The notes below the pieces were generated by a model. The model was not told the origin of the DNA. It searched no databases and saw nothing but the letters and a program-made list of their open reading frames with translations. The translations under genes and the position numbers were made by a program. From the NCBI GenBank assembly GCA_017405875.1, contig JAFQZM010000018.1:1-64000 (forward strand): a stretch of DNA of 64,000 bases, in the 5' to 3' direction. This DNA comes from a bacterium. Lineage in GTDB: Bacteria > UBP6 > UBA1177. Positions 21,637-33,003 of the stretch are shown piece by piece (the first letter of the stretch is position 1; every line of letters starts with the position of its first letter).

Positions 21637-22066
21637 CGTCTACTGCTCGGAAACAACTGAATTCAAAGTCGCCTTTTTCGACCTCGACCCGATGAATGTC
21701 GTCTGGCACGGCAACTACGTGAAATACATGGAGATCGGACGCTGCGCACTGCTAGATAAAATCGGCTACAACTACACAGAAATGGTGAAATCGGGCTATG
21801 CCTTCCCGGTCACCGACATAAAAATCAAATATGTCAGACCGCTCTACTTCGGAGAGTGCGCGAAAATCGTCTCAAGCCTTCTCGAATACGAGAACAGAAT
21901 CAAAATCAGATACGAAATCTTCAATGAAAAAGGAGAGTTGACCACAAGAGCCGAAAGCACCCAGATGGCTTTCAACATCTCGAAAATGGAGTCCGAATTC
22001 GTCTGCCCAGAAGTATTCGTGAACAGAGTCAGAGCGATAATTTCTAATAACAACGACCATGCCTGA
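21629..22066 (+). CDS. apeK: Acyl-CoA/ACP thioesterase, 4HBT/YbgC type (ApeK-like)
   Basis: 145 residues with the 4-hydroxybenzoyl-CoA thioesterase signature FFDLDPMNVVWHGNYVKYM (16-34): catalytic Asp20, then His27 and Tyr30, a match to YbgC spacing. ATG 21629 lies 6 bp after AGGAGG and overlaps the acyltransferase stop by 8 bp; the longer in-frame opening at 21596 lacks a ribosome site. It would release or edit acyl thioesters in the cytoplasm. Confidence 0.85.
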   Translation: MDSVYCSETTEFKVAFFDLDPMNVVWHGNYVKYMEIGRCALLDKIGYNYTEMVKSGYAFPVTDIKIKYVRPLYFGECAKIVSSLLEYENRIKIRYEIFNEKGELTTRAESTQMAFNISKMESEFVCPEVFVNRVRAIISNNNDHA

Positions 22067-22078
22067 CAGGAGAAAAAA

Positions 22079-22273
22079 ATGAAAAGATCATCAATTATCG
22101 CAGTTTTCGCCCTTTTGTTCTCGCTTCTTCTCTCCTCATGCGGAAAACAGCCGCCGACCCCCGCAACTGAAGCTCAAAAAATGATCGAAATGAAGCAGGA
22201 AGCGCAGAAGAAGCTCAACGACGCAGTCAAAGCAGCCGAAGAAAAGGAAAAGAAAGCTCTGGAAGATCTTTAA
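22079..22273 (+). CDS. Small lipoprotein with charged helix
   Basis: 64 residues: a lipoprotein signal with lipobox LLLSSC (Cys21), a short PPTPAT linker, then one very charged, probably helical stretch of about 35 residues rich in Lys, Glu and Ala. AGGAG precedes the ATG. It is the last gene of the block, 12 bp after the thioesterase. Its size is far below ApeN-type lipoproteins, so that name is not applied. It could be a periplasmic coiled-coil partner; function unknown. Confidence 0.75.
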   Translation: MKRSSIIAVFALLFSLLLSSCGKQPPTPATEAQKMIEMKQEAQKKLNDAVKAAEEKEKKALEDL

Positions 22274-22352
22274 ACGCAAACTCTCCCTCTCTGCATACCG
22301 AAACATTTCCTACGTCCACAGGTATTTTCTACACAGCAAATCAAATCCGCAC

Positions 22353-22380
22353 TTGACAAAAATATTCAGTGTATTAGACT
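22353..22380 (+). promoter_or_regulatory. Promoter-like element reading into hairpins at the island edge
   Basis: TTGACA (22353-22358) and TAGACT (22375-22380), 16 bp apart. Downstream lie two hairpins, GGCGG/CCGCC near 22400 and the 15-bp palindrome TCGGTGTCACACCGA near 22420, and then the tail of an opposing gene. No plus-strand gene follows, so the element may be a remnant of a promoter cut off from its gene. On the other strand the hairpins may terminate the nuclease-like gene. Confidence 0.5.
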
Positions 22381-22426
22381 AAAAACAATGCTGGAGCGTG
22401 GGCGGAGACTGCCGCCGCCGTCGGTG

Positions 22427-22945
22427 TCACACCGAGTGAATCGTGGATTTGGCAACCACCGCGTCAGCATACCTTATTTTCATGTTCGTTATATCATTCT
22501 TGGCATTGCTCACCAAAATGTTCCGGAGGCTCTCTTCAGTGATTATTCCTTTTTTGATTATGAGCGATTTTGCATTCAGAGCTCGGTTCCTTTTACCGAA
22601 CAAGACCTCTTCAAAAAGGATTGTTCCCTTATCAGTGTTTTTTACAAGAATGATCCGGTCTTCCATTACTCCATATTTGTTTCTGCGCTTCACTCCGGCA
22701 ACAGCAAAAGTCGGCTTTTCCAAAATTTCATTGATATTTTCCAAATCTTCGTCACTCACTGCGACTTGCCCGCGATTTTCTTCGGTTTCAGCGTTACCGT
22801 GATTCGACAGAATATGCTGCTTAAATTCCTGAGTAACTTTATGCCTGAATCCGCTGATATCCAATCCCGCTTCTTTGGCAAGATCTACAATCCAGTCTTG
22901 AACAAAATTCTTAAATTCACAACAATTGTTATTCACATCCTTCAT
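22427..22945 (-). CDS. PBECR-like (phage barnase-EndoU-colicin/RelE type) nuclease-fold protein
   Basis: 172 residues. The part from about 55 to 150 (VSDEDLENINEILEKP, GVKRRNKYGVMEDRIILVK, GTILFEEVLFGKRNRALNAK) follows the layout of phage-associated PBECR nucleases: a two-helix lead, paired beta strands, and a final catalytic-type strand region with Lys and Arg. These are linked to phage and toxin contexts. AGGA sits immediately before ATG 22945, an unusually tight spacing. The upstream leader on this strand holds a long inverted repeat (23004-23048). It is alone, opposing the polyene genes. Nuclease activity is inferred from fold resemblance only. Confidence 0.6.
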   Translation of the reverse strand: MKDVNNNCCEFKNFVQDWIVDLAKEAGLDISGFRHKVTQEFKQHILSNHGNAETEENRGQVAVSDEDLENINEILEKPTFAVAGVKRRNKYGVMEDRIILVKNTDKGTILFEEVLFGKRNRALNAKSLIIKKGIITEESLRNILVSNAKNDITNMKIRYADAVVAKSTIHSV

Positions 22946-22998
22946 TCCTGCTGCTCAGTTCCCCTTGACTTACAAAAATTATCCTGTAATATTCCTGC

Positions 22999-23060
22999 CA
23001 TGAGCCACGGTATCCTTTCTCCTGTTTCGGCAGTGCAGGGACCGTGGCAGTCTCTTTTTT
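22999..23060 (+). ncRNA. Candidate short hairpin RNA or terminator at the island edge
   Basis: TTGACT (22965-22970) and TAATAT (22987-22992) at 16 bp spacing would start a transcript near 22999. It would hold an 8-bp stem GCCACGGT (23004-23011)/ACCGTGGC (23041-23048), an inner TCCTG/CAGGG stem, and a T6 run at 23055-23060, giving about 60 nt. The same palindrome lies in the leader of the opposing nuclease-like gene, so it could instead be that gene's control site. Which strand is used cannot be told. Confidence 0.35.
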
Positions 23061-23239
23061 ATCCCTAAAAGTTTTTTAGTTATCACAAACATTGGCTTCA
23101 TTATATCCACAAAGACCAAAAACTTTTCACAATCATTATATCGACATTTTCAAAAATAAAAATAAAAAATATTTGAAAAATAATTTTACTTCCAACAATT
23201 TCAAGCTATTATTACATGTTTTTATTTGGAGGTTACACA

Positions 23240-24112
23240 ATGGAAGAAGTAAAAAACACTCAAATCAAGATTTTTGAAGAAAAACAAGTCCGAACACTTT
23301 GGGACAAAGAAACAGAGGAATGGTATTTTTCGGTAGTCGATGTCATCGCGGTTTTGACTGACAGTCCCAATCCGAGAAACTATTGGAAAGTTTTAAAACA
23401 TCGTTTGAACGGCGAAGGAAGCGAGTTGGTTACAAATTGTAACCAACTGAAAATGTTGTCTTCCGACGGCAAGATGTACAAGACCGACTGCATGACAACG
23501 GAGCAGCTTTTCCGCTTGATCCAGTCGGTTCCGTCACCGAAAGCTGAGCCTTTCAAACTGTGGATGGCACAGGTCGCAAGAGAACGGCTTGACGAGATCA
23601 AAGATCCGGAAATTTCAATAAACCGTGCCCTGATTGCATACAGGCAGCTCGGCTACTCAGAAAGCTGGATAAACCAGCGTCTGAAAAGCATGGAGATTAG
23701 GAAAGATCTGACTGACGAATGGAAAAGACGCGGATTGCAGGACGGTCTTCAGTTCGCGACACTAACCGACATCATATACAAGACATGGGCCGGCAAAACC
23801 GCCAAAGAATACAAGGAATTCAAAGGTTTGAAAAAAGAAAATCTTCGCGACAACATGACAAATCAGGAACTTGTTCTGAATATGCTTGCCGAACTTTCGA
23901 CAAAAGAAATATCTGAATCAAGAGATCCGCAGAACTTCAAAGACCACGTCCAGAATGCCGTTGACGGAGCAACTATCGCCAAAAACGCAAGAACAGAACT
24001 CGAGAAAAAGACAGGCAAAAAGGTCGTCTCCCCATCGAACTCTATTGACAACAAACACCTTCTGCATGACAACAAGCCTTCAGTCATTGACGAAGACGAG
24101 GAATCGAAATAG
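23240..24112 (+). CDS. BRO-N domain (phage antirepressor-like) protein
   Basis: 290 residues with an N-terminal Bro-N domain (about 8-110): VRTLWDKETEEWYFSVVDVIAVLTDS, NPRNYWKVLKHRL and the later MTTEQLFRLIQSVPSPKAEPFK are the standard chain of motifs. The remainder is helical and charged (SWINQRLKSMEIRKDLTDEWKRRG) and ends in an acidic tail. ATG 23240 has GGAGGT upstream; the frame opens 24 bp earlier without a better site. Bro-N proteins are phage antirepressors or stand-alone regulators on genomic islands. It lies between the PBECR-like gene and the AT-rich restriction-like module, whose codon use it does not share. Confidence 0.85.
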   Translation: MEEVKNTQIKIFEEKQVRTLWDKETEEWYFSVVDVIAVLTDSPNPRNYWKVLKHRLNGEGSELVTNCNQLKMLSSDGKMYKTDCMTTEQLFRLIQSVPSPKAEPFKLWMAQVARERLDEIKDPEISINRALIAYRQLGYSESWINQRLKSMEIRKDLTDEWKRRGLQDGLQFATLTDIIYKTWAGKTAKEYKEFKGLKKENLRDNMTNQELVLNMLAELSTKEISESRDPQNFKDHVQNAVDGATIAKNARTELEKKTGKKVVSPSNSIDNKHLLHDNKPSVIDEDEESK

Positions 24113-24128
24113 CCGGATTCCCACAACT

Positions 24129-24329
24129 GTTGCATTTTTTGCAACACTTCCCTAATTGCTCCACAATTGTGTAGTAATTTCCAAATACGGCTGACAAATC
24201 AGATAAAAACAATAATTTCCCCAAAAAATTAAAATAAATATTTTTCTCTTTAAATTCACATACACCCGCAAAAGTCTATCACCAATTCTTACAGCTATTT
24301 TGTAAATGTTTACAACAAGTTAATTGTTG
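24129..24329. promoter_or_regulatory. Cluster of palindromes upstream of the methyltransferase operon
   Basis: The 284-bp AT-rich gap before the methyltransferase holds GTTGCA-T5-TGCAAC (24129-24145), the 10-bp palindrome CACAATTGTG (24162-24171), TTGTAAA-TG-TTTACAA (24300-24315) and CAACAA-GTTAA-TTGTTG (24313-24329). The last two overlap and lie about 68-97 bp before the start codon, where a repressor or controller protein could bind. No short controller gene is visible in the gap. Binding is inferred. Confidence 0.5.
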
Positions 24330-24396
24330 CAATCCATTGTAAAAACCATAGAATCGGGAAGTTTTTGTTCGTAAAAGAAAGAGGGAAATAGATTTT

Positions 24397-25998
24397 ATGA
24401 GAGTTGCTGACTTTTTCTGCGGGGGAGGCGGTTTTTCAGAAGGCTTCCGACAAGCAGGATTCGATATTGTTTTTGCTGTTGATAAATGGGAACCGGCAGT
24501 AACCACATACAAAGGAAATAAGCCCTATGTAAATGTGATAAAAGACGATGTCGTTAGGATTGCGAATCTTCCAGACTATGAATTCGAAGCACTTGTCCCT
24601 GACTGTGAAATCATTGTCGGATCACCTCCATGTCAGTCTTTTTCTCATTCTAACAAATCAGGAAATGCAGACAAATCACTCGGCATTAAATTGATAGAAG
24701 CTTATTTAAAAATCATTGCTCGAAAAAAATTCAAGAAGGATCCTGTTTTGCGCTATTGGGTTTTGGAAAATGTCCCGGCGGTAAAAGATTATATCAAGGA
24801 TGAATATACTGCTGCCGATTTTGGAATGGAAGGTGAATTTGTTTTAAAAACTAATAGCGATGCTTCCGGCAAATATAATGCAAAATATTTTGGTGCTCCT
24901 ACTAATAGAGAAAGATTTCTTTGCGGAGAATTTCCTATACCAGTTGCTACAAACAACGATGACAACTTGGTGACTTTGCAACAAGTCCTTGATTCACTTG
25001 GGGATCCTCTGAGAACTGACAATAGTCTTATTACAGACATCAATTATCCAGATTTAAAATTAGAATCGCAAAATGTAACGGATCAACATTATATCTATAA
25101 ATTAGCGGACTTTGAATACGTTACAGCTAAAAGACTGAAACAAGACAAAGGTTATATGGGCAAAATGTCTTTTCCAGAAAACACATCAAAACCTGCAAGA
25201 ACTGTCATGGCAACGATGTCATGTAGTTCTCGCGAATCAATGATTTTGTCGTGTGAAAGCGGAGGCTATCGCCTTCCGACGGTAAGAGAAGTCGCTTCTA
25301 TGATGAGTTTTCCGATAGATTATTGGTTTTACGGCAAATCAAAAGCAACAAAGCATACGCTTGTCGGAAATGCTGTACCACCTAAAATGTCTTATGCTAT
25401 AGCACTAGCAATCGCTAAAGCGGAAGGATTGCAAATACCACTCTCTTATCCTAGGATCAAGCATGACGACAGTATCGATTTTTACAATTTAAATGGTGAA
25501 GTTTTTCCAATAAAAGAAGAACGTTCAAGGCGTGCAGTTGCTAAATTCAAATATCATATCCCCTATTTAATTGTTGATTCTTATAGGGTAGAACTCACGA
25601 ACTATCATTCTGATTTTGAAAACAAACAGTTCAAATGGGATAGTGAAATCCACTATAGCCAAGGGAAAGATAAAGCTAAAATATATACACCCAAAATATA
25701 TACCAACGATTTGCCCTCTCAATATCTAGACGATATTTCGAACTTTATCATCGAAAACCGTGCCAAAATACAAGGAGCGGATGAATTTCAAAAAGCCTAC
25801 TGCATGACGACAAAAGAAAGAAATGAAATTTCTTATTTAGGACCATACGAACTATTGGGAAACATAAAAAACTTTATAGATGAAAAAATCGATGCTGAAA
25901 CAAAGAAACAATCATTATTTATAAAGGATGAACCACAAGTATTACCTCTTGTAATCGTAGTAGGTTACTTTATTCTTTCACATATTATCAACAAATAA
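24397..25998 (+). CDS. DNA (cytosine-5-)-methyltransferase
   Basis: 533 residues. AdoMet motif I DFFCGGGGFSEGF (5-17), catalytic motif IV GSPPCQSFS with Cys79, motif VI ENV (124-126), motif VIII NRERF (170-174), and motif X VGNAVPPKMSYAIA (about 323-336) are all in order. The target-recognition stretch between VIII and IX is of ordinary size. About 170 C-terminal residues after motif X are extra and match nothing I know. The protein would protect DNA by 5-methylcytosine. It heads an AT-rich six-gene operon: the next gene starts 12 bp downstream. Recognition sequence unknown. Confidence 0.93.
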   Translation: MRVADFFCGGGGFSEGFRQAGFDIVFAVDKWEPAVTTYKGNKPYVNVIKDDVVRIANLPDYEFEALVPDCEIIVGSPPCQSFSHSNKSGNADKSLGIKLIEAYLKIIARKKFKKDPVLRYWVLENVPAVKDYIKDEYTAADFGMEGEFVLKTNSDASGKYNAKYFGAPTNRERFLCGEFPIPVATNNDDNLVTLQQVLDSLGDPLRTDNSLITDINYPDLKLESQNVTDQHYIYKLADFEYVTAKRLKQDKGYMGKMSFPENTSKPARTVMATMSCSSRESMILSCESGGYRLPTVREVASMMSFPIDYWFYGKSKATKHTLVGNAVPPKMSYAIALAIAKAEGLQIPLSYPRIKHDDSIDFYNLNGEVFPIKEERSRRAVAKFKYHIPYLIVDSYRVELTNYHSDFENKQFKWDSEIHYSQGKDKAKIYTPKIYTNDLPSQYLDDISNFIIENRAKIQGADEFQKAYCMTTKERNEISYLGPYELLGNIKNFIDEKIDAETKKQSLFIKDEPQVLPLVIVVGYFILSHIINK

Positions 25999-26010
25999 GG
26001 AGTTTAAATC

Positions 26011-27324
26011 ATGCCAACTATCAACAACGATTTTCCTCTTTCAGCAGATGCAAGGAAGGAACATTTAAAAGAAATTATAAGAGATAGTCACCCTATAAGT
26101 TCTGTTAAGGTGCCAGGGCATGGACCGTTACCTGTTTATAGAATTCCGCTTCAGTTTCTATCATACAATCCTTACAATACTCGTTTTTTGTCACAGGCAA
26201 AGACTTGGCAGAAACGACTCGGCCGAAGGCTTAGCAATGAAAGACCAGAGGATGTCGCTAAAATTGAAGATTTCCTTTGGTCATATAAAAAAGACAAAAA
26301 TGAAAATACCATTCATTCACTGATTAATGAGGGACAGCTGCAACCAGGTGTTGTTACGGTTGATGGTTTAATACTTGCTGGGAATCGTAGGTTTAGATTA
26401 CTAAATGAAATCGATCGCAATCCGAAGAAATACAATCCGAATAATGTCAATATTAGTGGTCTAAAGTTTTTTGAAGCGGCTATTATTGATACGGTGCTTA
26501 CGGAGAAAGAAATAGTAAGGTACGAGTCATTTTATCAATATGGTGCAGAGGATAAAGTTGACTATGATCCTATTCAAAAGTATATCGCTGCAAAAGAACA
26601 AAGAGATTATGATTTTTCACCAGAAGAAATAGCTAAGAATTTTGCCGCATTAACAAATGGCGATAAAAAAATCGTCGATAAATGGTTAGATGTATATGAT
26701 TTGATGGCTGAGTACTTAGATTATATTGGTGAACCAGAAATCTATACGGCATTGGCGGAAACAGAGGAATCATTCCTAAACTTGCTTGCTACAATTACAA
26801 GTTTGGCAAGAGGAAGAACTCAAAATGCTAATTGGGATTATGACACAATGGATATTGCTGATTTAAAACTACGCTACTTCGACTACATCAGAATGGGTAA
26901 AAGCACTCATGATTTTAGAGACTTCAAAAAAATATTTTTAAATAAGAGCAGATGGAAAAACTTCAATGCCGAGGTACAGGAACTCATTGATAAAGTTTCT
27001 GAAGAAATTCCAACTATTGATGAGTATCGAAAAAACTATCCTGAAGAGACCGAAGATTGGATTTTAAAAGTACGAAGTACTGATTATAGGAATAAGACTG
27101 AAAAAAAACTGGACAAATTATTTGGTGAAGAAAAATCATATATTTTAAGTAAAGAAGAGGAGGAAACACCCCTTAAAACAGCGCAGAAAGCATATCAGAA
27201 ACTTGAGAAGCTTTTGACTCTTATTGATGCCGGTCTAGATAGCAGTGTCAATTTTGAGGAATTATTAAATAAGGTAAAAGATATACAGAAGATAATAGGG
27301 AAAATTAAACAGATTATTGATTAA
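26011..27324 (+). CDS. ParB/Srx-fold-like protein
   Basis: 437 residues. The N-terminal 140 contain the ParB-type pair of motifs: an IPLQFLSYNPYNTRF stretch (about 45-60) and DGLILAGNRRFRLLNEI (about 116-132), resembling the ParB GxRR nucleotide-binding box. The rest is charged and largely helical with a Glu-rich turn (KEEEETPLK) and a coiled-coil-like end, without a helix-turn-helix I can see. ParB-fold proteins can bind CTP, cut DNA or only bind it; which applies is unknown. It lies between the methyltransferase and the helicase with short gaps (12 and 8 bp), so a role in the same complex is inferred. Confidence 0.65.
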   Translation: MPTINNDFPLSADARKEHLKEIIRDSHPISSVKVPGHGPLPVYRIPLQFLSYNPYNTRFLSQAKTWQKRLGRRLSNERPEDVAKIEDFLWSYKKDKNENTIHSLINEGQLQPGVVTVDGLILAGNRRFRLLNEIDRNPKKYNPNNVNISGLKFFEAAIIDTVLTEKEIVRYESFYQYGAEDKVDYDPIQKYIAAKEQRDYDFSPEEIAKNFAALTNGDKKIVDKWLDVYDLMAEYLDYIGEPEIYTALAETEESFLNLLATITSLARGRTQNANWDYDTMDIADLKLRYFDYIRMGKSTHDFRDFKKIFLNKSRWKNFNAEVQELIDKVSEEIPTIDEYRKNYPEETEDWILKVRSTDYRNKTEKKLDKLFGEEKSYILSKEEEETPLKTAQKAYQKLEKLLTLIDAGLDSSVNFEELLNKVKDIQKIIGKIKQIID

Positions 27325-27332
27325 GTAACGAT

Positions 27333-29276
27333 ATGAAGATAAAAATCAGTACACATGAAAATGGCGAGTCATTTGTCATTACCCCTATAGACTTTAATGT
27401 AACTGACATTCGCGGGATAAAAGTTTACATAAAGAATTTAAACGGTGGATATGTGGATGGCAATAATATTATCATACCAATATCCAATGTTGACGTGCTT
27501 GATTTGTATCATAAAACCGCTGAATTATTCAAAAATAGATTCAAATGTCAAATCGAGAATGATCAGCATTCTGGTTCATTACTAGAAGATGCTGTTAATG
27601 AAGAAAAACGGTTTCAATCCTTTTCTGCTAAAGCATACGCTATTAGAAATAATGATGTTGATAACAGCGAGCTATCGGATTTTCTGAATTGCATTAAACA
27701 AGATAGCTTTGTTCGGACTCTGAAACCTTTTCAAATTTTATCTGCATACCATCTTGCATTTTCACATAATGCATGTAACTTTTCGGTCCCTGGTGCTGGC
27801 AAAACATCAACAGTATTAGCTGCTTATGCTTATTTAGTTAATAGAAACGAAATTGATAAATTGTTGGTTGTTGGGCCGTTGGCATCATTTCTTGCATGGA
27901 AAAAAGAGTATTTCTTTTGTTTTGGCAAAACTCCTAAATTACTCGAAATCATGGGTGGTACTCCTGAAAAGCGGATTAACAACGAACTGATACGTTCAAA
28001 TGTCGATTTGGATTTAGTATTAGTCAGTTATGACAGCGTCAGTAGTCATCTTGACGAACTTCTGTTTTTCCTAAGGAATAACAGAACCATGGTCGTTCTT
28101 GATGAAGCTCATAGGATAAAAAATGTGGAAGATGGAGTTCGCAGCAACGCCACGCTTCAGTTATCCCTTCCTGCTCGATCAAGAGTGGTTTTAACAGGTA
28201 CTCCAGCACCTAATAGCTATGTCGATTTATATAATCTATATAGATTTATCTGGCCTTCGCATAATATTATCGGGTTCTCTGTTCCCCAACTTGCTTATAT
28301 GAGTAAGCACGAAGGAGATGCTAGAGTTGGTGAATTGATTTCAAGGATAGCTCCATTCTATATACGAATTAGGAAAAGTGACTTGAAATTGCCGAATCCG
28401 GAGTTCCTCCCTCCTTTTACTGTGCAAATGTCTCCTATGCAAGCTAAAATCTATGATGCTATTGCAAATATGACAGTAGGAAGACTAGAAGATAATTCTT
28501 CGTCTGTCACAAGCAGGTTGTCTTCGATTATTCGATTGAGGCAAGCTGCAACAAATCCGGCTCTTTTAAGCCATAAATTAGATGATGATTATGATGATTC
28601 AAATGACTCTCTTACCAGAATGCCATTAGATAGCAGTCTCAATGTCAGTGATGAAATAATGAGACTTATCCAATCATACAAGGATTCAGAAATTCCTTAT
28701 AAATTTATAACGGCAGGTAAAATAACTAAAGACATCTTAGATGAAGGCGGTAAGCTAGTCATTTGGTGTGAGTTTATCGGTACATGTGATGATTTAAGTG
28801 CTTATTTTTTTAGCATAGGCATTGATAATAAAATACTTTACGGCAAAACTGATTATGTGAGTCGTGAAAATATTATTAATGAGTTTACGAATAAAGAAAA
28901 CCCATCTTCATTCAATGTCATTATTGCAAACCCTCATGCCGTAGGCGAATCAATATCGCTTCATACTACATGCCATAACGCACTGTACCTTGAGCAAAGT
29001 TTCAATGCTGGAACATATATGCAATCTAAGGACAGGATTCATCGTGTAGGTTTGCTTGATAGTGATGTGACTCGTTATTACTATATCCATTCGGCAGATA
29101 CTATTGACAAAGTAGTGTTTGATCGTGTCAATAAGAAAGAAAATAGGATGCTTGAACTAGTAGAAAGTCAGGATATTCCGTTGATTGCTGACAATCAGGA
29201 TTTTCTAGAAGACAATGAAGACGATATCAAGGCAATAATAAGAGGTTATTATGAGTACAGATCTAAACATATTTGA
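27333..29276 (+). CDS. SNF2-family DNA translocase/helicase
   Basis: 647 residues. Walker A VPGAGKT (152-158), DEAH (257-260) in VVLDEAHRIKN, motif III TGTPAPNSYVDLYNL, and in the C-terminal RecA-like lobe NPHAVGESISLHTTC and QSKDRIHRVG (motif VI) mark a superfamily 2 SNF2-type ATPase. About 120 residues precede the motor and have no recognised domain. SNF2 motors in defence systems translocate on DNA before nuclease action. The gene follows the ParB-like gene by 8 bp and overlaps the DUF3883 gene by 26 bp, which implies tight co-expression. Confidence 0.9.
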   Translation: MKIKISTHENGESFVITPIDFNVTDIRGIKVYIKNLNGGYVDGNNIIIPISNVDVLDLYHKTAELFKNRFKCQIENDQHSGSLLEDAVNEEKRFQSFSAKAYAIRNNDVDNSELSDFLNCIKQDSFVRTLKPFQILSAYHLAFSHNACNFSVPGAGKTSTVLAAYAYLVNRNEIDKLLVVGPLASFLAWKKEYFFCFGKTPKLLEIMGGTPEKRINNELIRSNVDLDLVLVSYDSVSSHLDELLFFLRNNRTMVVLDEAHRIKNVEDGVRSNATLQLSLPARSRVVLTGTPAPNSYVDLYNLYRFIWPSHNIIGFSVPQLAYMSKHEGDARVGELISRIAPFYIRIRKSDLKLPNPEFLPPFTVQMSPMQAKIYDAIANMTVGRLEDNSSSVTSRLSSIIRLRQAATNPALLSHKLDDDYDDSNDSLTRMPLDSSLNVSDEIMRLIQSYKDSEIPYKFITAGKITKDILDEGGKLVIWCEFIGTCDDLSAYFFSIGIDNKILYGKTDYVSRENIINEFTNKENPSSFNVIIANPHAVGESISLHTTCHNALYLEQSFNAGTYMQSKDRIHRVGLLDSDVTRYYYIHSADTIDKVVFDRVNKKENRMLELVESQDIPLIADNQDFLEDNEDDIKAIIRGYYEYRSKHI

Positions 29277-30162
29277 CATCCTATTGGATCCTTCGGATAT
29301 GTTTTCATTCTACCAGAAAATAGGAACTGTTCTCAAAAATGATCGTGATATTGCTACTGAGCGTGTCCGAGGAAAAGCTTTGCTCAACACGTTGTCTTTG
29401 TTGTCGTACACCAGCATGATTCTGAAGTACAATGGAGAATATACGAAACTCATAGACTGCAAAACGTATGAATCGTTTTATGCTGAATTGTTTGCACGAA
29501 TAAAGAATATATTCTCAGATGAAGTCGCTGTTATTATTAACTGTGACAAGCATTATGATGAGACAAAGAATTTATTCTATATCTATGCTAACGATATTCC
29601 ATTAAGGTATATGGGATTGGCTATGTTGATGGAACAAATACATGTGTTCGATAGAATTAATCAGAGAGAATATTTTATAGGCATTGAAGAATATAAACAA
29701 TCTATTGTGGAATACAGCAAACAAAGGAAAAAAGAAATTTCTTTGGAACAATTGAAAAATAAAATTGAGGAAAATGAAAAAGCTGGCGAGATGTCAGAAC
29801 AGTTTGTGCTAGATTACGAGAAAAAAAGATTAGGTGCACCTAAAAACCTATTAGTGAAAAGAGTGTCTGAGATTGATGTTACGTTGGGATATGATATCGT
29901 TTCTTTCAACTCTTCTCAGTCCCAACAACCAGATCGTTTTATTGAAGTCAAGTCTGTTTCTAAAGAAGGTTTTTTCTGGTCAAGAAACGAGTACGAAATC
30001 GCTAAATTAAAAGGGGAAAACTATTACTTGTACTTAGTCGAATTAGGTCGAGTCGGCGACCCTGAATATATTCCAGACATAATACAAAACCCAGCAATGA
30101 CTGTTATGAAATCCGAAGGATGGTTTGTAGAAGCAGAATCTTATCACATCAAACGCATATGA
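29251..30162 (+). CDS. DUF3883 domain protein
   Basis: 303 residues. The first 165 or so are helical without a recognised domain. The C-terminal part (about 185-300) matches DUF3883: YEKKRLGAP, LGYDIVSFNSS, RFIEVKSVSKEG, WSRNEYEIAKLKG and YYLYLVE. The pattern Glu/Asp...Asp...Glu-x-Lys recalls the PD-(D/E)XK nuclease fold, and DUF3883 is common in defence operons. It overlaps the helicase end by 26 bp, with AGAGG before ATG 29251. A nuclease or DNA-sensing role is inference. Confidence 0.8.
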   Translation: MSTDLNIFDILLDPSDMFSFYQKIGTVLKNDRDIATERVRGKALLNTLSLLSYTSMILKYNGEYTKLIDCKTYESFYAELFARIKNIFSDEVAVIINCDKHYDETKNLFYIYANDIPLRYMGLAMLMEQIHVFDRINQREYFIGIEEYKQSIVEYSKQRKKEISLEQLKNKIEENEKAGEMSEQFVLDYEKKRLGAPKNLLVKRVSEIDVTLGYDIVSFNSSQSQQPDRFIEVKSVSKEGFFWSRNEYEIAKLKGENYYLYLVELGRVGDPEYIPDIIQNPAMTVMKSEGWFVEAESYHIKRI

Positions 30163-30183
30163 TTTCTAACAAAAAGGCCTTTC

Positions 30184-30621
30184 ATGAAGCATCAGAAACT
30201 CTCAACAACGCCTGAGATATCAAAGCGTATGGCAAATGTCCATTTGAAGGCAGGCAAAGCAGAAGTGACGTTGGCAAAGGAACTCTGGAAGAAAGGTCTT
30301 CGATATCGTAAGAACTATAAAAAACTCCCCGGTTCTCCAGATATAGCTATTTTAAAATACCATATTGCAGTCTTTGTTGATGGGGAATTCTGGCATGGAA
30401 AAGACTGGGATCAAAAGAAAACACGATTGAAATCTAACCAGGGATACTGGATTGAAAAAATCGAAGAAAACATAACTCGCGACAAGAGAAATGATTTGCT
30501 ACTATCTGAAATGGGTTGGAAACCGATCCACTTCTGGGAGAAAGATGTAAACAGAAATTTAGGATTTTGCATCAACACGATTTTGGGCAACATTTATGAT
30601 TTTAAAGGAGAATATATATGA
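30184..30621 (+). CDS. Vsr-like DNA endonuclease (first copy)
   Basis: 145 residues of Vsr fold: TTPEISKRMANVHLKAGKAEV, LRYRKNYKKLPGSPDIAI with Asp53, then FVDGEFWHGKDW (64-75) with His71, and the late RDKRNDLLLSEMGWKPIHFWE. Vsr nicks T:G mismatches formed by deamination of 5-methylcytosine, so a partner for the methyltransferase is expected. It lacks the Cys zinc ligands of classical Vsr (GCFWH is GEFWH here), so zinc binding and mismatch specificity may differ. It is in the AT-rich operon and overlaps the next gene as ATGA. It may be the system nuclease rather than a repair enzyme. Confidence 0.8.
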   Translation: MKHQKLSTTPEISKRMANVHLKAGKAEVTLAKELWKKGLRYRKNYKKLPGSPDIAILKYHIAVFVDGEFWHGKDWDQKKTRLKSNQGYWIEKIEENITRDKRNDLLLSEMGWKPIHFWEKDVNRNLGFCINTILGNIYDFKGEYI

Positions 30622-31805
30622 ATTCGGTCAATCATATACCATTCAAGGAATTAAAAAATGCCAAGCTTCTTGTTGATACAGTATATGAAGGAGGAAGCGA
30701 CAAAAACATAAACAGCGAAGTGTTATCCAAGCTTCTTCATGTAGGCAATTCTGGCGGATTCAGAAAATGTATGAAGGTGCTTGATGGTAAAAAAACAACA
30801 GAGGCAGCATATGTTTGCATTTATACTACTGGAGAAGAGCTCGAGTGGCGAGATGAACTCGATCGAACACTTGGGCGTTTTACATACTGGGGTGACAATC
30901 GAAAAGCTGGAAACCCTCTGACAGAAACAAAATTTAGAGGGAATGCTTTTCTCCAAGAATCTTTTTCTAAACTTGCACTTGGCTTAAGAAAACAGATAGC
31001 TCCTGTATTTGTGTTTGAGAAATATTGTGGCCGTGACATGGTATTCCGTGGACTCGCTGTTCCTGGCGATAGAAGAATGAACCCACAAGAAGCTCTAGTG
31101 TCAGTTTGGGCACAAAACAATGATGGACGCTATCAGAATTATAAAGCAACATTTACAATACTTGACGTTCCTGAAATTGCTCATGAATGGCTGACAGATT
31201 TAAAAAACGGGTCTGGTTATCAAAGTGAATATGCTCCAAAGGTATGGAAGGCTTGGGTCGACAAAGGGATATATACCCCTCTGATAACTGAAAAAAACCC
31301 CATACTCTACCGAAAAGCAAATGAGCAGTTACCTGTGCAAGGAACCATTGAGTTTTCAATGCTTGACCGTATAATTTCTTTTTTTGATAACCCTTACCTT
31401 TTTGAAAAATTTGCATGTAAAATCGCGCAAATCATGGATTCTAATATCATCAGTATCGAACAAACAAGACAGACACGAGATGGTGGGCGCGATGCAATTG
31501 GAAAGTATCGTGTTGGATTATCGTCAGGTGGCATTGAGTTGGAATTTGCACTGGAAGCTAAAAGGTATAATCTTAACCACTCTGTTGGAGTAAAGGAGAC
31601 GTCCAGGCTGATATCAAGAATAAAACATCGTCAGTTCGGTATTTTTGTAACGACCTCGTTTATCAGTGATCAAGCATACAAGGAAATCATTGAAGATCAG
31701 CAACAAATAGTTATTATCTCCGGGAAGGATATAATAGACATTCTTTTTTCAGCAGGAATCAACAGCCTGGCAATTTTAGAAGATTGGCTTAAAGCTAATT
31801 TTTAA
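30618..31805 (+). CDS. AspBHI/MspJI-like restriction endonuclease
   Basis: 395 residues in two domains. The N-terminal part (1-200) has FKELKNAKLLVDTVYEGG and LLHVGNSGGFRK, strings typical of the AspBHI N-terminal SRA-like recognition domain. The C-terminal part (255-390) is Mrr-like: TRDGGRDAIG (286-295) and LEAKRYN (312-318) supply the D...ExK nuclease set, followed by FGIFVTTSFIS. Enzymes of the MspJI family cut DNA that carries 5-methylcytosine, which fits oddly with the methyltransferase in the same operon. It overlaps the Vsr-like gene by 4 bp and ends the AT-rich block; TAA lies at 31803-31805. Confidence 0.75.
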   Translation: MNSVNHIPFKELKNAKLLVDTVYEGGSDKNINSEVLSKLLHVGNSGGFRKCMKVLDGKKTTEAAYVCIYTTGEELEWRDELDRTLGRFTYWGDNRKAGNPLTETKFRGNAFLQESFSKLALGLRKQIAPVFVFEKYCGRDMVFRGLAVPGDRRMNPQEALVSVWAQNNDGRYQNYKATFTILDVPEIAHEWLTDLKNGSGYQSEYAPKVWKAWVDKGIYTPLITEKNPILYRKANEQLPVQGTIEFSMLDRIISFFDNPYLFEKFACKIAQIMDSNIISIEQTRQTRDGGRDAIGKYRVGLSSGGIELEFALEAKRYNLNHSVGVKETSRLISRIKHRQFGIFVTTSFISDQAYKEIIEDQQQIVIISGKDIIDILFSAGINSLAILEDWLKANF

Positions 31806-31843
31806 CAACCGACGTCCTCACACCAACACAGCGCCACAAAAAC

Positions 31844-32335
31844 ATGTCCCATATCCGCAGCAAAAACACGAAACCCGAGCTCAAGGTCCGCAGATGGCTG
31901 TGGGAGCACGGCTACCGCTACCGCCTGAACGTGAAGGATATTCCGGGAAAACCCGACATCGTGATGAGGAAATACAAAACCGTGATTTTCGTGAACGGCT
32001 GTTTCTGGCACGGTCACGTTGGGTGCGACAAATTCGTGATGCCGAAATCGAATGTCGGGTTCTGGCGATCCAAAATCTCCCGCAACCGCGAGCGCGACCG
32101 CAAAAACTACAAAATCCTTCAGGAAGCCGGCTGGAACGTCATCGTTGTCTGGGAATGCGGGCTGAAATCATCCTCTTTCGAAGAGACGATGGCGAAAGTC
32201 ATCTCCAAAATCGGCAAAAACCCGCAAAAACCTTTTGAATACCCCGCCCCTGACAGCGGTTTCGCCGCCGCAGCGGAACCGGATGCAGAATACAAAGCCA
32301 CTGAAGCAAACGCATTTAAGAAAAATAAAAATTAA
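31844..32335 (+). CDS. vsr: Vsr very-short-patch repair endonuclease, 5' end damaged
   Basis: 163 residues from ATG 31844, canonical Vsr: NTKPELKVRRWLWEHGYRYR, DIPGKPDIVM with Asp38, VNGCFWHGHVGCDKFVMPKS with His56, His58 and Cys ligands, and NRERDRKNYKILQEAGWNV. Normal Vsr has some 12-18 residues before MSHIR. The bases just upstream, in frame from 31802, encode exactly that conserved N-terminus (DVLTPTQRHKN) but contain no ATG, GTG or TTG back to the in-frame stop at 31796-31798, and ATG 31844 has no ribosome site. So the start seems lost. Codons are GC-rich like the host, unlike the preceding operon. Extra C-terminal tail of about 30 residues (Ala/Pro/Glu, then Lys/Asn). Confidence 0.85.
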   Translation: MSHIRSKNTKPELKVRRWLWEHGYRYRLNVKDIPGKPDIVMRKYKTVIFVNGCFWHGHVGCDKFVMPKSNVGFWRSKISRNRERDRKNYKILQEAGWNVIVVWECGLKSSSFEETMAKVISKIGKNPQKPFEYPAPDSGFAAAAEPDAEYKATEANAFKKNKN

Positions 32336-32360
32336 ATTAGAAAAAATTTTTCATTTTATC

Positions 32361-32388
32361 TTGACATTTTTATTTTCATCTCTATACT
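32361..32388 (+). promoter_or_regulatory. Strong sigma70-type promoter of a short transcript
   Basis: TTGACA (32361-32366) and TATACT (32383-32388) are spaced 16 bp apart. No gene starts downstream; a terminator closes the unit 60-90 bp later. Confidence 0.75.
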
Positions 32389-32393
32389 TCTTG

Positions 32394-32476
32394 GTCGGAA
32401 GGTCTCCATTAACCTGCGGATTTCCGCAAAGAGATGAAGATTAACGAGGGCTGCTTTCGGGCAGCCTATTTTTTTT
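32394..32476 (+). ncRNA. Candidate small RNA, about 80 nt
   Basis: Transcription from the promoter at 32361 would begin near 32394. The RNA would contain an outer stem GTCTC (32402-32406)/GAGAT (32431-32435) enclosing TGCGG-ATTT-CCGCA (32415-32428). It would end in a terminator GGCTGC/GCAGCC (32449-32454 with 32461-32466) followed by T8 (32469-32476). The string ATTAAC occurs twice. It matches no RNA family I know. There is no coding sequence of sensible length inside. Confidence 0.55.
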
Positions 32477-32532
32477 GAGGAAAACTTTGTTCTCTCTGAA
32501 AAATAATCTGAAATTCATTTCTATAGAAATAT

Positions 32533-32959
32533 GTGATTCCGCTTTCTTCCGCTAAGGAAAAACACAAATCATGGAAAAATGTCGATATCGACCGTTTTCT
32601 AATTTTTGAAAACTGCAAAAAGTCTGAAAAAGCACTTAACGGCATCTATACGGAAAAATCCCGACGGTTCGCTGAAACACATCATTTCAGTCATAGATCT
32701 GAAAAAAATGATTCCTGTAAAATCAGGACTTTACTCCGAAATAAACTTGAATTTTTCTCCCGATGATTCTGAAGACATGAAAAAATACAAGGTCTTGTTA
32801 AACATCGAATACTCTTTCTGCATCAAAATTATCGATTCTGTTGTTCAAAAAGCCTCGAATTTATACGATAATCAGAAATCAACCGGCAAAATCGCGAAAT
32901 TCTGCTGCGATTTTAATCTGCTTGAAGAAAAAAGCAGGGAATACGACACTAAATCATAA
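32533..32959 (+). pseudogene. Frameshifted small gene of unknown function
   Basis: Two reading frames abut. From GTG 32533 the first reads ...FLIFENCKKSEKALNGIYTEK, and the second, from about 32659 to TAA 32957-32959, reads NPDGSLKHIISVIDLKKM... to the end. They join seamlessly if one A is added to the A5 run at 32654-32658, giving about 142 residues with natural sequence (YTEKNPDGSLKH). The second frame contains a helical IEYSFCIKIIDSVV stretch. So this is either a one-base deletion pseudogene, a sequencing slip or slippage-dependent expression. It lies between the small RNA and the third polyene block; family unknown. Confidence 0.5.
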
Positions 32960-33003
32960 AAACCCGATGCCTCCTACTCATTCTGCCGCTGTAACAGGAA
33001 ATT

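Follow-up and report, generated by a model that had tools for sequence, protein, structure and literature searches.

A recently acquired, predicted DNA-defense cassette with a conserved methyltransferase-ParB-SNF2-NOV_C core

The DNA described here, called the window below, is a stretch of 64,000 nucleotides (positions 1 to 64,000 of the forward strand of contig JAFQZM010000018.1, assembly GCA_017405875.1) from a bacterium of the GTDB lineage UBP6; UBA1177. In the program-made list of its open reading frames (ORFs), six ORFs, all on the + strand, span positions 24397-31805, and this six-gene block is a recently acquired DNA-defense cassette. Consecutive ORFs are spaced by +12, +8, -26, +21 and -4 bp (negative values are overlaps), and the guanine-plus-cytosine (GC) content of the block is 36.3%, compared with 46.4% for the remainder of the window outside the hotspot discussed below. 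An original prediction for this DNA had named six co-directional genes of particular families, separated by small gaps or overlapping, in a block richer in AT than its surroundings; profile or fold support for all six, gaps of 21 bp or less and the difference in GC content agree with it. Family assignments were made by scanning ten window proteins against Pfam, NCBIfam and PADLOC profiles. The cassette genes are as follows.

24397..25998, + strand: C5-cytosine DNA methyltransferase (MTase), 533 amino acids (aa), core (PF00145, 9e-37)
26011..27324, + strand: ParB/KorB-like protein, 437 aa, with a GNRR box and a helical C-terminal part, core (assigned by fold and GNRR box)
27333..29276, + strand: SNF2-family ATPase, 647 aa, core motor (PF00176, 1e-23)
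29251..30162, + strand: NOV_C (DUF3883) protein, 303 aa, predicted core nuclease (PF13020, 8e-16)
30184..30621, + strand: Vsr mismatch endonuclease, 145 aa, accessory (Vsr family match, 3e-24; TIGR00632)
30618..31805, + strand: AspBHI-like (MspJI-family) endonuclease, 395 aa, accessory, predicted to depend on 5-methylcytosine (5mC) (RE_AspBHI_N, 4e-54; Mrr_cat, 5e-15)

In the C5-MTase, the catalytic C79 and the triplet E124-N125-V126 are invariant among 25 homologs, and the AlphaFold2 model (pLDDT, the predicted local distance difference test score, of 91.4) finds its best Foldseek matches in M.HaeIII and DNMT1-type enzymes. The protein also carries a conserved C-terminal extension of about 190 aa (residues ~345-533), for which a fold search resolved no fold. 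Among the C5-MTases of loci L014-L063, this extension is present if the MTase is encoded directly upstream of ParB and absent beside a separate BanI-like restriction endonuclease (REase). The second protein gave a single sub-threshold match to Pfam (0.004), and its assignment to ParB is made because of its GNRR box and predicted fold. Conserved positions among 40 homologs are R58, Q109, G119, N125 and R127, and within the box N125 and R127 occur in 40 of 40 and G124 and R126 in at least 90%. The 14 best PDB matches of its model (pLDDT 90.5) are all KorB, Spo0J or pNOB8 ParB, at probabilities of 0.84-1.0 (mostly 0.97-1.0) but with E-values of 0.005 or worse, none reaching 0.001. The protein has both a ParB-type N-terminal domain with the GxRR box and a helix-turn-helix (HTH), which together define the ParB/KorB superfamily. 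The SNF2 protein has the expected ATPase motifs (Walker A NFSVPGAGKT, a DEAH box and QSKDRIHR), and its motor motifs are invariant among seven homologs.

The NOV_C protein consists of a variable N-terminal half and a C-terminal half that forms a PD-(D/E)XK nuclease domain. All 38 homologs match the NOV_C profile, and in every one of them E183, G213, D215, E232 and K234 are invariant, with E183, D215, E232 and K234 supplying the E, D and ExK residues of PD-(D/E)XK enzymes. This pattern is the mark of an active nuclease of that class, and activity is predicted from it; a passage in Anantharaman et al. (PMC3710099) already terms DUF3883 an REase domain. The cassette Vsr scores 121 bits against TIGR00632 (cut-off 97.85) and shares 77% identity with its counterpart in the sister locus L014. 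The last protein aligns over its full length with the AspBHI structure 4oc8 (2.5e-78) and shares the full domain architecture of the MspJI family (AspBHI, LpnPI, MspJI), that is, an SRA-like N-terminal domain with the acidic residue of the 5mC pocket and an Mrr-type PD-(D/E/Q)XK domain in which the catalytic D..EAK is conserved. The AspBHI pocket residues D71 and R87 are kept as D79 and R95, and Y83 is replaced by W91. Because the pocket Asp and Arg are retained, along with an aromatic residue at the third pocket position, the enzyme is predicted to require 5mC, and for this reason it would not act as the cognate nuclease against unmethylated DNA. MspJI-family enzymes are generally described as stand-alone, whereas the gene here shares its operon with an ATPase core and a C5-MTase that appears to be intact.

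The neighborhood of these genes can be judged from homologs of the motor. SNF2 homologs were searched by SNF2 similarity alone, with ParB not required, and the best 97 loci (L014-L110) were retained. A ParB-like gene is found immediately upstream of SNF2 in 92 of the 97 and a NOV_C gene immediately downstream in 75 of the 97, whereas the corresponding figures among 61 distant SNF2 control loci are 1 and 0. The five loci without an upstream ParB gene either lie at contig ends or are disrupted or divergent. Adding the window and eight loci found via ParB gives 101 of 106 for ParB and 80 of 106 for NOV_C, and the most frequent spacing between SNF2 and NOV_C is a 26-bp overlap, as in the window. 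Because the arrangement recurs in about 100 loci, compared with about none of the 61 controls, the neighborhood is conserved beyond chance, and the worry that homologs of the cassette proteins never co-occur can be put aside. A DNA methylase lies within five ORFs in 55 of the 60 loci with enough flanking sequence. The SNF2-found loci belong to Bacillota, Bacteroidota, Pseudomonadota, Chloroflexota, Patescibacteria and several archaeal groups, and loci also occur on plasmids and on prophage or viral contigs (L005, L094-L100). A scan of viral contigs with a single ParB sequence gave no match; the SNF2 profile did find loci there. The ParB family was present in 5 of 386 genomes, a sample weighted toward relatives of the host, and is therefore widespread but not common. 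In four loci (L065, L083, L102 and L110), Type III Mod-Res genes are followed directly by ParB-SNF2, with NOV_C missing.

Four further loci (L020, L022, L033 and L049) contain MTase-ParB-SNF2-NOV_C alone, with opposite-strand genes flanking both sides. Since such loci exist, these four genes constitute the core, and since they carry no extra genes, NOV_C is the sole nuclease recognized in them. The MTases found beside the triad fall into four classes (C5, N6/N4, D12 and a long N6/N4 type), and a quick FastTree phylogeny of SNF2 implies a minimum of 13 switches between classes. The recurring unit is ParB-SNF2-NOV_C plus any DNA methylase, with the methylases being swappable.

We estimate a probability of about 60% that the cassette is a multi-subunit, ATP-dependent restriction-modification (R-M) system, with an MTase that marks DNA, a ParB-SNF2 motor, NOV_C as the cutter of unmarked DNA, and Vsr and the AspBHI-like enzyme as auxiliaries. 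Beyond the domain assignments, all functional steps are our inference. The C5-MTase would mark a host sequence, as its family does. The ParB-like protein, which has a nucleotide-switch clamp fold, and SNF2, with which it is observed to be paired, might form a DNA-bound motor through clamping and translocation. The NOV_C protein would dock on this motor, and its PD-(D/E)XK domain, with its invariant residues, would probably cut DNA without the mark. Vsr presumably repairs T:G mismatches that result from 5mC deamination, as is the function of its family, and a role beside the C5-MTase in mismatch repair is more likely for it than the cutting of phage DNA. The AspBHI-like enzyme may serve as a second check by cutting 5mC in contexts foreign to the host MTase, for example in phage or plasmid DNA modified by another methylase. 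From the protect-sense-translocate-cut machine first proposed for this DNA, the steps of protecting, moving and cutting are thus kept as the likeliest scheme, with NOV_C as the putative cutter, and the notion of a six-gene machine is not.

Support for the R-M interpretation comes from the linkage of ParB and NOV_C, the nearby MTase and its changes of class, the loci reduced to the four core genes, the invariant NOV_C residues, the recognized restriction enzymes that other loci add, the setting in a defense hotspot, the prophage and viral loci, and the precedent of CglI/NgoAVII. Several observations weigh against it. NOV_C is absent from about a quarter of loci, among them entire clades (those with Type III-Res or MutH/Sau3AI and many loci with a D12-MTase), and is therefore not a universal cutter. 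Recognition of one site by both NOV_C and the MTase should make the two covary more than the motor accounts for. They do so across 20 loci (partial Mantel r 0.33, p 0.005), but the signal is gone if the window is left out (p 0.19), so the co-segregation of the MTase with the NOV_C nuclease domain is one recombination event in this cassette and no rule. Also, ParB could be regulatory instead of being part of the motor, and a 5mC-dependent enzyme adjoining a C5-MTase risks self-cutting.

Additional restriction enzymes occur in or beside triad operons, including BanI/DpnII-like enzymes (about 21 loci), BglII-like enzymes and Type III Res, and a Priestia plasmid locus adds an annotated MutH/Sau3AI enzyme. 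Covariation of the BanI-like REase with the MTase was not significant (p 0.11). The many loci with such a cognate-looking REase, as well as the AspBHI-like enzymes that accompany other C5-MTase systems (Mza/Z1), favor a somewhat unlikely alternative, according to which ParB-SNF2-NOV_C is a helper or back-up module (e.g., a DNA-degrading or end-processing motor) of ordinary Type II or Type III R-M systems and separate REases do the cutting, here the AspBHI-like enzyme. However, the four loci reduced to the core hold no further recognized nuclease in the operon, the catalytic residues of NOV_C are invariant, and the AspBHI-like enzyme retains its 5mC pocket and so should spare unmethylated DNA.

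The fifth and sixth genes are distributed differently from the core. The identical six-gene order was found in one other genome, that of Mogibacterium sp. (L053), whereas L043 and L063 have the cassette set minus Vsr, and L014 and L021 have Vsr and no AspBHI-like gene. By profile, the AspBHI-like gene is present in 4 of about 106 loci, which are scattered over the SNF2 tree. Vsr and the AspBHI-like enzyme look like optional add-ons to the four-gene core, and the original prediction of the full six-gene set as one unit must be narrowed to four conserved genes, since the other two come and go. The AspBHI-like protein of the window is 81% identical to that of L063, compared with 44% for the SNF2 proteins of the same pair, and its gene has therefore moved separately. 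The window MTase shares mostly 68-72% identity with members of the L018-L063 group (59-63% with two of them) and 63% with L014. By contrast, ParB and SNF2 share 77% and 72% identity with L014 and 32-44% with that group. Within the NOV_C gene, similarity changes from L014-like to L053-like near residue 150-160. Judged from these identities, the cassette is evidently a mosaic. A single six-part machine, in which Vsr and the AspBHI-like protein would be indispensable, is improbable: the gene order shared with Mogibacterium and the junctions close to both ends of the block (see below) would fit it, but the AspBHI-like gene is rare, scattered and separately mobile, and the closest sister locus, L014, does without it.

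As read from sequence, the flanks of the cassette resemble an aryl-polyene-type cluster, with glycosyltransferase, acyltransferase and thioesterase genes on the left and genes for a LolA-like protein, an MMPL-like exporter and a ketosynthase on the right. In sister species, whose exporter genes are 86-96% identical to those of the window, the same gap is filled by Type I M and S genes with PDC-S56 (L188), by a Lamassu-like ATPase, an LlaJI/McrB-like module and Vsr (L189), by an McrB-like module (L190), or by a Schlafen-type helicase, an McrB-like module, Vsr and ToxN (L194). Window positions 22042-33000 are a defense hotspot inside an aryl-polyene-type gene cluster. On the right, identity to L189 and L194 resumes exactly at 31808, 3 nt past the last stop codon of the cassette. 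The left end is set by one sister genome, L190, identity to which ends near 24361-24366, about 30 bp ahead of the MTase start. From these two edges, the six genes were exchanged together as a single block, which lies beside a resident gene.

24367..31807, no strand: unit of exchange, comprising the cassette swapped in at the hotspot (right boundary exact to the base, left boundary approximate)
31844..32335, + strand: second Vsr, hotspot resident outside the cassette (93% aa identity to L189, 88% to L194)

The ParB gene is present in 1 of 28 genomes of the phylum, and the closest ParB (77%) and SNF2 (72%) proteins belong to a Lachnospiraceae genome (L014), which points to arrival of the cassette by horizontal transfer. 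A last alternative, in which there is no R-M system and ParB-SNF2 is a partition or chromatin-remodeling pair of mobile elements with an MTase that merely protects the element, would suit the ParB fold and those loci that lie on plasmids and prophages, a few of which adjoin ParA genes (Exiguobacterium L008, L211), but it is highly improbable given that MTase and nuclease neighbors predominate and that the window cassette occupies a defense hotspot in a chromosomal gene cluster.

The second Vsr was considered as a seventh cassette member and rejected, because it is hotspot DNA common to the sister genomes. Its counterparts in L189 and L194 come after the LlaJI/McrB-like module, and it is an orphan resident that stayed behind after the cassette took the place of its earlier R-M partner. 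It is without the first 13 codons of the L189 copy, which were removed at the cassette junction. A ToxN/AbiQ-like toxin gene (32606-32959) is shortened at its 5' end, with L188, L189 and L194 having 110 bp extra at 32527/32528. To the left of the cassette, a Bro-N protein (23216-24112) matches the PADLOC candidate PDC-S13 at 444 bits, and a gene for PBECR3 (phage Barnase-EndoU-Colicin-RelE-like nuclease) lies at 22427-22945 on the - strand.

Known systems offer partial parallels. The CglI nuclease is a phospholipase D (PLD)-type protein with a B3-like domain, whereas the nuclease here is NOV_C, an extra ParB-like subunit is present, and a family scan of the six cassette proteins gave no match to PLD, B3 or Z1 domains. 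The likeness lies in a DNA MTase, a superfamily-2-type ATPase and a separate nuclease that are encoded together, here C5-MTase, SNF2 and NOV_C, with a DEAD-family helicase-like ATPase in CglI and NgoAVII; the papers on those systems (PMC4267653, PMC5737866) provide a precedent for ATP-dependent R-M of this kind, and by analogy these systems and the cassette likely share the logic of nucleoside triphosphate-driven cutting of unmodified DNA. Mza-type systems (MutL/GHKL, Z1, PD-(D/E)XK, AIPR and C5-MTase) are likewise centered on a C5-MTase and have neighbors that include Vsr and an AspBHI-like enzyme, but their motors are Z1 and GHKL, where the cassette has ParB-SNF2-NOV_C. On plasmids of Thalassospira (L205) and Rhizobium (L206), AspBHI-like 5mC-dependent enzymes adjoin such Mza/Z1 systems with a C5-MTase, which suggests that 5mC makers and 5mC cutters are a recurring pairing. 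PD-T4-1, Tmt (TmtA) and the PADLOC candidate PDC-S36 share the NOV_C domain, but they match the window protein over its NOV_C half only.

The well-known defense systems are more distant. DISARM has an SNF2-type ATPase (DrmD) and a C5-MTase (DrmMII), but its DrmA helicase and DUF1998 protein DrmB, usually joined by the PLD protein DrmC, have no counterpart, in that no DUF1998 or PLD match was found in the ten window proteins, matches to DrmA and DrmD are weak and generic for superfamily 2, and the window SNF2 reaches only about 35-37 bits with the DrmD models, whose cut-offs are 610-950. The same profile scans gave no match to PglZ or BrxC/PglY of BREX (only BrxA at E 0.02 on the ParB protein) and none to the ZorA/ZorB motor pair of Zorya, with SNF2 at 45 bits against an NCBIfam ZorD cut-off of 1500. 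For Druantia, the DUF1998-type large helicase DruE was not found, and the sole match is that of the MTase to DruM-type C5 models, which C5-MTases match in general. No HsdM, HsdS or HsdR domains of Type I R-M systems occur in the cassette. By the features tested, the cassette is not DISARM, BREX, Druantia or plain type II R-M, as had been anticipated, and not Zorya. Streptococcus pyogenes SpyI was rejected as a studied prototype, because it is an LlaJI-type system.

The set also appears uncatalogued, as had been suspected: it is absent from PADLOC 2023 and from the open-licence literature searched, in which no description of a ParB-SNF2-NOV_C gene set was found. Papers on R-M neighborhoods (PMC2292703, PMC3710099, PMC10853773, PMC12839542, PMC12458937) address related themes, namely C5-MTase and Vsr with SNF2 and MORC, and an SNF2-DUF3883 fusion, and the gene set is not described in their accessible portions. 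PADLOC yielded no family for the window ParB protein at E 0.001 and two isolated weak matches among 40 members, and Pfam gave no family above noise for the members except one HTH_ParB match. Since neither Pfam nor PADLOC contains this ParB family, genome annotators would miss the system.

The cassette provides a conserved setting for an old puzzle, that of MspJI-family 5mC-cutting enzymes adjoining C5 methylases. The MTase neighboring MspJI misled early workers and is now considered inactive (PMC3874153), whereas the window MTase keeps its catalytic motifs. The cassette also pairs a ParB-fold protein with an SNF2 motor in a setting remote from chromosome segregation. More tentatively, and with less than even confidence, ParB-SNF2-NOV_C might be a general restriction engine and a distinct type of R-M that couples to C5, N6/N4 or D12 methylases, in which a ParB-type nucleotide-gated clamp would load the SNF2 translocase; combined here with a 5mC-dependent nuclease, it would impose a two-sided check on unmarked and wrongly marked DNA. 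If the R-M interpretation is true, the cassette would represent an unnamed, widespread R-M class of bacteria, archaea, plasmids and prophages.

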